Shown here one piece after another: positions 26,114-31,066 of a stretch of DNA of 37,432 bases. Under the pieces are notes generated by a model. The model ran no database searches and had not been told where the DNA came from. It saw nothing but the letters and a program-made list of their open reading frames with translations. Numbering within the stretch: position 1 is the stretch's first letter; each line of letters begins with the position of its first letter. A program made the translations under genes and the position numbers. Where the stretch lies: contig JACRIL010000140.1 in NCBI GenBank assembly GCA_016235825.1, positions 1 through 37,432 on the forward strand. Reading direction: 5' to 3'. The stretch comes from Planctomycetota bacterium. GTDB lineage: Bacteria; Planctomycetota; Phycisphaerae; SM23-33.

Positions 26114-27655
26114 ATGATTTCACGGGTACACAGCGCGATATTGATGGGTATAGACGCCATCGGCAGCGAGGTCGAGGCCGACGTCAGCGCCGGCCGCGTC
26201 GGCGACATAAAGCTGGTCGGCTTGGCCGATGCGGCGGTCAAGGAGAGCATTTCGCGGATACAGTCTGCCCTTCGCAACAGCGGCTACCGCTGGCCAGGCC
26301 CGAAGGTAACCATCAACCTGGCGCCCGCCGACATAAAAAAGGAGTCGTCCGGATTCGATCTGCCCATCGCGATAGCGGCCTGTCTTGCCGGCGGTCTTTT
26401 CCAGTCGGAAAAACTCGACGACTATCTGATTCTTGGCGAACTGGCCCTGGACGGGCGGGTCAGGCCGGTCAAGGGCGCGCTGGCAAGCGCGATGCTGGCG
26501 GCCCAGAAAGGTCTTAAAGGTCTGATCGTCCCGGCCGACAACGCCCCCGAGGCTGCCGTCGTCGACAACATCGAGGTCATCCCGGTCAATTTCCTGTCCG
26601 ACGCGGTGGCCTTTCTGACCGGCCAGCTGCCCATCGAGCCTGCCAGCGTGGACTTGCAGGAGGTCTTCGCGGTGGCCGGCAAATACGACGTGGACTTCGC
26701 CGACGTCCGCGGGCAGGAATCGGCCAAGCGGGCGCTGATAATCGCCGCCGCCGGCCATCACAACATCCTGATGATCGGCCCGCCCGGCAGCGGCAAGACC
26801 ATGCTTGCCAAACGGATTCCCAGCATCCTTCCGCCGCTGAGCCTGGCCGAGTCGCTGGAGACCACGCGCATCTATTCAGCCCGCGGCCTGCTGACGCCGG
26901 GCCATTCGCTGATGGCTGTGCGGCCCGTCCGCTCGCCGCATCATTCGACCAGTTCGGCCGCGCTGGTCGGCGGCGGGGTTATACCACAGCCGGGCGAGGT
27001 CTCGCTGGCCCATCACGGCGTGCTGTTCCTGGACGAGTTCCCCGAATTCGCCCGGACGACGCTCGAGATGATCCGCCAACCGCTGGAGGACCGCTGCGTA
27101 ACTATCCCGCGCGTGCACAGCACGCTGAAGTTCCCGGCCTCGATAATGCTGGTTGCGGCGATGAACCCCTGCCCCTGCGGCTACTACACCGACCCCAAGC
27201 GGCCGTGCAAATGCTCGTCGATAACCATCGAGCGATACCTTGCCCGCATCTCCGGCCCGCTGATCGACCGGATCGACATTCACATCGAGGTTCCGCCCGT
27301 GCCGTGGAAACACCTTCGCGCCGAAGGCCCGGCCGGCGAGGGACTCAACTCGACGCAGATGCGCGACATGGTCGTCGCGGCAAGGCAGGTCCAGCACCGG
27401 CGATTCGACGGCGACGGGGGCATTACAACCAACGCCACAATGGCGCCGCGGCAGATAAGGAAATTCTGCAAGCTCGACCAGGCCGGCGAGTCGCTGCTCA
27501 AACAGGCCCTGACCGAGATGGGCCTGTCCGCCCGGGCGCACGACAAGATTCTGCGGATCGCCCGCACCATCGCCGATCTCGAAGGGCAGGAAAACATCCA
27601 GTCGCAGCATGTCGCCGAGGCCGTCCAGTACCGCCGCCTCGACCGGCGCCTTTAA
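26114..27655 (+). CDS. comM: YifB/ComM family AAA+ ATPase (Mg-chelatase-like)
   Basis: A 513-residue protein of normal length for YifB/ComM. An N-terminal Lon-protease-like ChlI domain (residues about 20-170; VGLADAAVKESISRIQSAL is diagnostic) precedes a Mg-chelatase-like AAA+ domain. Walker A is GPPGSGKT (222-229), Walker B is VLFLDEFPEF (303-312), and a Cys cluster MNPCPCG...CKC sits at 350-367. In bacteria that take up DNA, ComM is a hexameric helicase that promotes branch migration during recombination. The family occurs widely, also in species not known to be competent. The C-terminal Mg-chelatase subdomain is complete. The start ATG has no strong ribosome binding site. Confidence 0.93.
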   Translation: MISRVHSAILMGIDAIGSEVEADVSAGRVGDIKLVGLADAAVKESISRIQSALRNSGYRWPGPKVTINLAPADIKKESSGFDLPIAIAACLAGGLFQSEKLDDYLILGELALDGRVRPVKGALASAMLAAQKGLKGLIVPADNAPEAAVVDNIEVIPVNFLSDAVAFLTGQLPIEPASVDLQEVFAVAGKYDVDFADVRGQESAKRALIIAAAGHHNILMIGPPGSGKTMLAKRIPSILPPLSLAESLETTRIYSARGLLTPGHSLMAVRPVRSPHHSTSSAALVGGGVIPQPGEVSLAHHGVLFLDEFPEFARTTLEMIRQPLEDRCVTIPRVHSTLKFPASIMLVAAMNPCPCGYYTDPKRPCKCSSITIERYLARISGPLIDRIDIHIEVPPVPWKHLRAEGPAGEGLNSTQMRDMVVAARQVQHRRFDGDGGITTNATMAPRQIRKFCKLDQAGESLLKQALTEMGLSARAHDKILRIARTIADLEGQENIQSQHVAEAVQYRRLDRRL

Positions 27656-29812: not shown

Positions 29813-29897
29813 AAAAAAAACACTCCGCCGCTTCCAGGGCAGCTAGTTCATATATATGAACGATAGCTGTTGGGGGGTCGCCCTGGCAGCGGCGGAG
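29813..29897 (-). terminator. Strong intrinsic terminator with an embedded 16-bp palindrome
   Basis: On the minus strand the stem arms are 29880-29897 and 29823-29840 (CTCCGCCGCT..CCAGGGC, 17 of 18 pairing), followed by TG and eight T (complement of 29813-29820). This is a classic rho-independent terminator for transcripts coming from the 82-residue gene side. Unusually, the loop holds the perfect palindrome GTTCATATATATGAAC (29846-29861) flanked by AGCTA/TAGCT, and an 11-base G-rich bulge. The plus-strand glycosidase gene stops at 29803, 10 bases away. Confidence 0.75.
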
Positions 29898-29900
29898 CCA

Positions 29901-30176
29901 AGAGTCCCTAACAGGATACCGCGTGAGCCGCGTTTCGACCAAAACCGGTCGGCCGCAAGGAAGGCCGACGGAGGCGACCTGTTTAAGGTCGTCGAGGAGG
30001 CCAGACGCCGCGGAGGGCCGGTTTTCGTCGAAACCCTTCGGGACGGGCCGCCTTTTGCCGCATGCCTTCGTCGCTCGGGCTCGACGACTCGTTTTATGGG
30101 TCGGCGTCGCCCTCGCTCCTTGGCCTGCGACAAAATTCAGCCCGTCGCGGCCACGGGGCATCCTGTTAGGGACTCT
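29901..30176 (-). repeat. 276-bp element bounded by perfect 17-bp inverted repeats (MITE-like or structured RNA)
   Basis: AGAGTCCCTAACAGGAT (29901-29917) is repeated as its exact complement at 30160-30176. Inside, GTTTCGACCAAAACCGGTC (29932-29950) is inversely matched at 30016-30034 (17 of 19). Smaller stems include CGACCT/AGGTCG around GTTTA near 29975-29991 and TCGGCC/GGCCGA near 29949-29968. The right half also contains several short complementary GC blocks. No duplicated target site is obvious at the edges. The block is GC-rich and shows no recognisable protein. On the minus strand it lies between the 82-residue gene and the terminator. It could be a non-autonomous mobile element or a large structured transcript. 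Confidence 0.7.
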
Positions 30177-30231
30177 AAGTTGTCACAGGTCCTCGCCCCG
30201 ACCTGGTACCGCAAAGTTATGCTTCGACAAG

Positions 30232-30480
30232 CTATGCTTCGACCTTGTGGCCAAGCGACACCAGCAGATGGGCGGACATCTTCTGCCACCCTTCCGCCAC
30301 GGCCTGGCCATACCTGCATGTGAAATACTGAAATGTGCGATTTCGCTCGGCCTTGGCCTTGCGATAGCAATTGGCGGCGTCAAACAACCGGCCTGAATCG
30401 GCCAAAAATACGCCTTTGGCCACTTCGTGGTTCAGTTCGCGGAGATGCCGTCGGGCATCGAAATAGGCGAACGGTCCCAT
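30232..30480 (-). CDS. Small helical protein of unknown function
   Basis: An 82-residue protein. The ATG at 30480 is chosen because AAGGAG lies six bases upstream; a longer reading frame starting at 30531 lacks such a site. The sequence is mainly helical and basic (MGPFAYFDARRHLRELNHEVAK, RLFDAANCYRKAKAERN, CRYGQAVAEGWQKMSAHLL), with features of TPR-like or four-helix small proteins. It carries three cysteines. It stops at 30232, 56 bases before the 17-bp inverted-repeat element on the same strand. A direct repeat TATGCTTCGAC straddles the stop. No family was recognised. Confidence 0.65.
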   Translation of the reverse strand: MGPFAYFDARRHLRELNHEVAKGVFLADSGRLFDAANCYRKAKAERNRTFQYFTCRYGQAVAEGWQKMSAHLLVSLGHKVEA

Positions 30481-31066
30481 GGAATGCTCCTTTCCATGTT
30501 CCAGCCAGACCTTTGCTTTTTCACCACGCACTAACGGGCTGGATGATGTATGTCGCCTATGATGCCATGCCCTTCTTCCCTATTTTACGCCCGGATATTT
30601 CCAATTAACAGGGTTTTTAAGATTTCAAAACGGCGATTAGATATCCCGAACCCGATTTTGAAGCATCTCTTTATATAGCAGACAGTTATACCTGTAATAT
30701 TCCACATTCTTTTAAATATTAAATTTGCAAATCTGGCTGGCCAAGGCCGCATTCATGGGACATTCGGCCGCAATTATCGATTCAAGACTTGACAGAAAAA
30801 CAACTTATCGCCTGTCGCGCCGACAGGACACGTATTGGGTCAGTTATGAGGGGGAAACCAAACAATGTTTCGCCATCTTGTGGTGCGGGCGTCTCGCCTG
30901 CGATTTTTTTCTTTAACGTTGCAGGCAGGACTTGTCCGGCGAAGCTTCAGCGAAGCCAGATGCCCGCACCACAATCCCCCTGTAACTGATCCATTACACA
31001 GGATGATGGAGTTTTATTCCTTTTTGCGGGCGTGCAGGTTAAAATACAGTCCGAATTGAGGGCGCG
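30481..31066. other. Intergenic region with hairpin repeat
   Basis: This gap of 586 bases separates the minus-strand small gene from the plus-strand HEAT gene. Apart from the ribosome binding site at 30487-30492 and the inverted repeat at 30879-30973 it shows no supported gene. Around 30600-30750 it is AT-rich with no clear promoter pair. The weak TTGAGGG before the HEAT start codon is its probable ribosome binding site. Confidence 0.5.
30879..30973. repeat. 95-bp intergenic inverted repeat (TGTGGTGCGGGC type)
   Basis: TGTGGTGCGGGCGTCT (30879-30894) and AGATGCCCGCACCACA (30958-30973) are inverted copies with 15 of 16 matches. The inner part holds CGCCTGCGA, a T-rich middle, TTGCAGGCAGGA, and CTTGTCCGGC, the complement of the GCCGGACAAG core (30931-30940). 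It belongs with the other GC-rich hairpins in this window. Confidence 0.8.

Follow-up and report, generated by a model that had tools for sequence, protein, structure and literature searches.

Within the window, by which we mean the whole 37,432-nucleotide stretch of Planctomycetota DNA that was analysed, the 276-bp block lying between a small gene and an intrinsic terminator is a MITE and not part of a conserved transcript. The best overall explanation, to which we assign a probability of about 0.93, is a MITE situated at a TNA site between the gene and the terminator, with a conserved core and with ends that have been exchanged repeatedly. MITEs are usually defined by their conserved ends, and their interiors may decay. 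In this lineage it is the interior that is ancient and constrained, and the ends are expendable, the reverse of the normal definition. The phylum-wide, core-conserved and end-exchanging MITE lineage is new here; the open-access literature yielded no paper on such elements in Planctomycetota and none on core-conserved, end-exchanging bacterial MITEs.

The locus and its mobile element

The minus strand carries, in order, an 82-codon open reading frame, 55 bases, the 276-bp block, three bases and a terminator hairpin ending in T8. The features are as follows.

29813..29897, minus strand: intrinsic terminator, pre-existing; 18-bp stem, tip GTTCATATATATGAAC, T8; single copy in the genome
29899..29901, no strand: left copy of the target-site duplication, CAA; one mismatch to the right copy
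29901..30176, minus strand: MITE, 276 bp including the terminal A/T of the target duplication; element proper 29902-30175
29902..29920, plus strand: TIR type B, GAGTCCCTAACAGGATACC; 22 genome copies, 0 in the reversed control
29925..30152, minus strand: conserved core, approximately 228 bp; short basal stem and two hairpin arms with tandem G.A mismatches
30157..30175, minus strand: TIR type B, GAGTCCCTAACAGGATGCC, from inverted-repeat and TIR pattern searches
30176..30178, no strand: right copy of the target-site duplication, TAA, flanking the window copy
30232..30480, minus strand: 82-codon gene, outside the element; ATG at 30478-30480, stop at 30232-30234
30487-30493, minus strand: Shine-Dalgarno sequence AAAGGAG, 6 nt upstream of the ATG of the 82-codon frame

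The preliminary description of this DNA regarded the gene as well supported and placed 56 bases between it and the block. The gap exists but measures 55 bases. The gene does have a good Shine-Dalgarno sequence and one weak paralogue in its own genome (C222; 38% over 73 aa, E 7.7e-9); a search of 60 relatives, however, yielded no homologue, and it matched neither Pfam nor NCBIfam. A tandem direct repeat, AAGTTATGCTTCGAC / AAGCTATGCTTCGAC, spans the end of the gene at 30214-30243. The strong terminator with an embedded palindrome is indeed present: the 18-bp stem (29823-29840 / 29880-29897, 94%) is followed on the minus strand by T8, and the palindrome at 29846-29861 forms the tip of the hairpin. 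No second copy of the terminator exists in its own genome, and it therefore lies outside the repeat. Elsewhere in the window, the frame at 26114-27655 resembles by eye a candidate YifB/ComM-type magnesium-chelatase-like ATPase.

The block itself was found as described, with perfect 17-bp inverted-repeat ends, many internal stems and a boundary three bases short of the terminator stem. The 17-bp ends sit within a 25-bp inverted repeat (92%), and the element has 19-bp TIRs beginning GAG. The block folds at -167 kcal/mol, compared to -112 +/- 5 kcal/mol in shuffles (z = -11), and the opposite strand gives z = -9. No recognised protein is coded by the block, the one open frame tested having no Pfam match, and searches of plasmid and phage collections returned no match.

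Searching its own genome with the block gave 36 matches, among them one near-identical full copy (93%), approximately 15 copies that have only the core in common and bear other ends, and fragments. As a family, the MITE has about 25 further matches in this genome, besides many derivatives of 50-56 bp. The preliminary description had offered a non-autonomous mobile element upstream of an existing terminator as one of two readings, to be favoured by copies scattered over unrelated places where the 82-codon gene is missing. Many such copies were found, and the multiple copies, the TIRs and the TNA duplications bear that reading out. In the genome, the type of end seen in the window copy (TIR-B, GAGTCCCTAACAGRATGCC) is present 22 times and a second type of end (TIR-A, GAGCCTATCCGRATAACTAC) 116 times, with 0 occurrences of either in the reversed controls. 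We parsed 50 elements, L019 being counted twice under two end pairings; their lengths are mostly 272-276 bp (with core) or 50-56 bp (ends only). In 39 of the 50, an identical trinucleotide stands just outside GAG...CTC (20 TAA, 18 TTA and 1 TGA), and the window copy, flanked by CAA and TAA, has an inexact duplication. In elements of opposite orientation, TTA or TAA stands as a direct repeat within a structure that is otherwise inverted, so the TNA was duplicated from the target and does not merely prolong the palindrome. All 30 copies examined with a simple codon-usage gene finder lie between genes or at gene edges.

Several minor features of the copies in G000 were also noted. Around 28 near-perfect palindromes of 53-56 bp, made of TIR-A and a short tip (L087-L114), outnumber the full elements and are apparently core-deleted derivatives. 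At L016, L027 and L117, the end CAGCCCGTTGAAAAAG is inserted in the TIR of TIR-A elements and truncates them. The core is antisense to both neighbouring genes in six of six co-directional copies (L003, L004, L007, L009, L014 and L015); this orientation is absent in G010 and is possibly due to chance.

Bacterial MITEs of IS origin include Nezha, RUP, NEMIS/Correia and ERIC (PMC3733652). Like these, the elements described here fall in the range of 70-300 bp, have TIRs, are non-coding and intergenic, fold strongly and would be moved in trans. They differ in that the core is conserved across the phylum and is common to many unrelated TIR types.

A conserved two-armed core

The core, approximately 228 bp long, folds into two arms, and this fold is ancient and conserved. 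Alignment of 26 cores from ten genomes gave a mean column identity of 76%, and RNAalifold predicted from it a basal stem and two arms in the form of a Y, comprising 66 pairs, 42 of which have compensatory changes. The values for the real alignment were not reached in any of 500 shuffles: 94.3% of cells are paired (80.2% in shuffles), 42 pairs are changed on both sides (25.8), 218 cells are doubly changed (63) and the covariation is 0.390 (0.149). Slid controls, in which the relatedness among the cores is kept, collapse, whereas this relatedness is uncorrected in the shuffles. The idea that the structure is real and under constraint proved correct, the covariation being strong.

Many unpaired positions are also near-invariant over the 26 cores. 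The GA of columns 42-43 lies opposite the GA of columns 82-83, and the second arm has TC/TC positions; the G.A mismatches of arm 1 are on the minus strand and those of arm 2 are on the opposite strand. Strand-neutral folds have tandem GA/GA as the predominant 2x2 loop of either strand, a motif that the energy model itself favours.

A covariance model detected the core in 49 of the 298 genomes sampled from the class. Of 392 genomes sampled across the phylum, 35 carry it, among them members of other classes and a single-contig genome. The weaker matches are partly single-arm elements of approximately 160 bp with their own ends.

Exchange of ends and candidate transposases

The same core is found with at least 11 end types: GAGTCCCTAACAGAATG, GAGCCTATCCGGATAAC, GGCACTCTAACAAAAC, GAACTGGTTTCATACC, GAACGTGTATGAAAAC, GAAACTATCTCAGAAC, GAGCGTGCGTGAGAAG, GAACCCCTAACCAAACC, GACGCTGTTTCAGAAC, GAACCCATCCCAAAACC and CAGCCCGTTGAAAAAG. 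The last is flanked by TTAG/CTAG and not by TNA. On a tree built from 36 cores, the labels of the 18 genomes undergo 18 changes (minimum 17); the cores therefore follow their hosts. The 11 end types undergo 14 changes on the same tree, and B, A, C, E, F and H recur separately. Each of five genomes (G000, G010, G024, G046 and G596) has end types of two or three kinds, and the ends of two almost identical cores in G046 differ markedly. The own genome also contains a hybrid (L125, on C91) that pairs a TIR-B end with a TIR-A end between two TTA flanks. Core lineages that track the host genomes, combined with TIRs that vary within and between genomes, show that the ends of core-bearing MITEs have been exchanged repeatedly. 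At three loci, L274 (G543), L280 (G596) and L284 (G351), a core or an arm lies between ends with CTAG/TTAG flanks in place of TNA; hence the core also rides IS elements with a different target rule.

Candidate partners were sought at the transposase loci of related genomes as inverted repeats flanked by identical TNA. Scanning for TIR pairs around transposases with G[AG]G ends required gave no result, and relaxed scans found partners. The same class contains complete IS elements of approximately 900 bp whose TIRs are similar, whose target is likewise TNA and whose transposases belong to the IS5 family. L135 is a 901-bp IS whose end, GAGCCTATCCGGACAACCCT, is close to TIR-A. Its transposase matches the NCBIfam IS5 family transposase NF033580 below the curated cut-off; each half falls below this whole-protein threshold because the gene is split over two frames. 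L224 is a 905-bp IS whose end, GAGTCCCTAAAAGAAC, is close to TIR-B, with a DUF4096 match in overlapping frames. The end GGCACTCTAACAAAAC of L132, L198 and L203 matches MITEs of G042/G051 and resident IS ends in the own genome. The MITE ends are similar, not identical, to those of L224 and L135.

In the own genome, a 276-contig MAG, we found no PF01609 transposase and no complete IS whose ends are exactly TIR-A or TIR-B, only cut-off DUF4096 fragments. These lie at two contig ends, where the end GGCACTCTAACAAAACCTAG adjoins TNA. DUF4096 is the N-terminal part of IS5-type transposases.

The elements share with the IS5 family (IS427/IS1031-like) TIRs that begin GAG/GG and a 3-bp TNA duplication; the partners in this family are complete elements of approximately 900 bp with DUF4096 and a DDE transposase. 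Unlike them, the MITE has no transposase and only the ends are in common. IS1031-group elements have a 3-bp target, and one member measures 899 bp (PMC2516522). From the likeness of the TIRs and the TNA target of the IS5-type partners, we infer that the MITE transposes and that IS5-family (IS427/IS1031-like) transposases, acting in trans, most likely move it.

The resident IS5-type element with end GGCACTCTAACAAAACCTAG breaks contigs in G000 (L136 1-260 on C260; L140 1-260 on C111). Seven TIR-A MITEs are abutted at their exact TNA edges by the TIR-C ends of this resident IS, on the right of L005, L089, L100, L104 and L105 and on the left of L006 and L106, a pattern that suggests a preference for insertion at MITE borders. 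Nesting of this kind, with IS ends inserted at the TNA borders of MITEs, occurs often here and is one plausible route of end exchange.

The level at which the core acts

We considered whether the fold is maintained as RNA or as DNA on the premise that selection on a one-strand RNA tolerates G.U changes and not A.C. Columns that are well paired on either strand have 31 G.T and 39 A.C mismatches, and the union of both strand predictions has 73 G.T and 80 A.C. Folds that forbid G.U gave single-mismatch counts of 41 G.T and 44 A.C for one strand and of 62 G.T and 41 A.C for the other; the positive control, with only six tRNAs, was too small to be usable. G.T changes are thus about as frequent as A.C changes and the G.A-rich arms lie one per strand, which favours a probable DNA-level or both-strand role over a one-strand RNA.

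These results bear on the other reading of the preliminary description, a single transcript with a large structured 3' part, and on the rival explanation that gene, block and terminator evolved as a single transcription unit, with a regulatory RNA as its structured 3' part. The three do lie on the same strand, 55 bases apart and with the terminator directly downstream, and the block fold is very stable. However, the block occurs in dozens of contexts without the gene, which has no homologue in the 60 relatives; both strands fold equally well and the G.T and A.C mismatches are balanced, so the G.U signature of a one-strand RNA is lacking; and an Rfam scan of the region gave one chance match only and none at the locus. 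The copies elsewhere without the gene largely refute a dedicated unit, and we regard it as very improbable. On physical grounds, a minus-strand read-through mRNA that carries the MITE in the place of a 3' UTR is likely, and would be incidental. A broader possibility is that the core is a functional RNA, trans-acting or in 3' UTRs, which spreads on MITE ends. The strong covariation with conserved unpaired positions fits such an RNA, and MITEs are known to affect neighbouring mRNAs (PMC3733652). The absence of a G.U excess (31 against 39 in paired columns; 41 against 44 in strand-neutral folds), the placement of the G.A-rich arms on different strands, and an inconsistent orientation to flanking genes, with few copies having co-directional neighbours, make it rather unlikely.

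Template-switch correction of quasi-palindromes is a known mechanism, and part of the covariation could have arisen by it without selection. That the pairing as a whole is kept neutrally in this way, with no function, agrees with the strand-symmetric mismatch pattern. It fits less well with unpaired G.A and T.C positions that are near-invariant in 26 cores, or with a core that persists phylum-wide while the TIRs turn over, and we consider it unlikely. The short palindromic derivatives of 50-56 bp, intergenic and in high copy, recall REP/REPIN palindromes mobilised by a RAYT (Y1) transposase, which are likewise abundant between genes. The target and TIR logic is different here: the duplications are 3-bp TNA, and the TIRs resemble those of IS5 elements, which are of the DDE type; RAYT elements are not known to make such target duplications. 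Mobilisation by a RAYT is the most remote of the readings considered.

Under the preferred reading of a MITE with a conserved core, an IS5-type (IS427/IS1031-like) transposase acting in trans would cut the element at GAG...CTC, and the element would have been inserted at a TNA that lay past the end of the 82-codon gene and ahead of the terminator belonging to it; minus-strand transcripts would therefore carry it as a 3' UTR. With less certainty, the core fold may act as DNA, as a cruciform or a single-strand hairpin with one G.A-rich arm per strand, and may help the passenger to persist or to be recognised, whichever transposase moves it. The role that we infer for the core is tentative, at somewhat under even odds: in a phylum-wide passenger DNA, the folded two-armed core would be what is inherited, and new ends would be taken repeatedly from different IS families, so that many unrelated transposases mobilise a single MITE lineage; the arms, with their tandem sheared G.A mismatches, would secure propagation or end capture at the DNA level. 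If true, passengers are untied from any one transposase, which would explain their long-term persistence. The dozens of genomes and at least 11 TIR types form a comparative data set for end acquisition and for the roles of DNA hairpins.

Single-arm elements of approximately 160 bp in G332, G580 and G412 (L265-L268 and L272) repeat the G.A-rich motif of the core arms between different ends. Two units of this single-arm type, joined as an inverted dimer, may make up the two-arm core.
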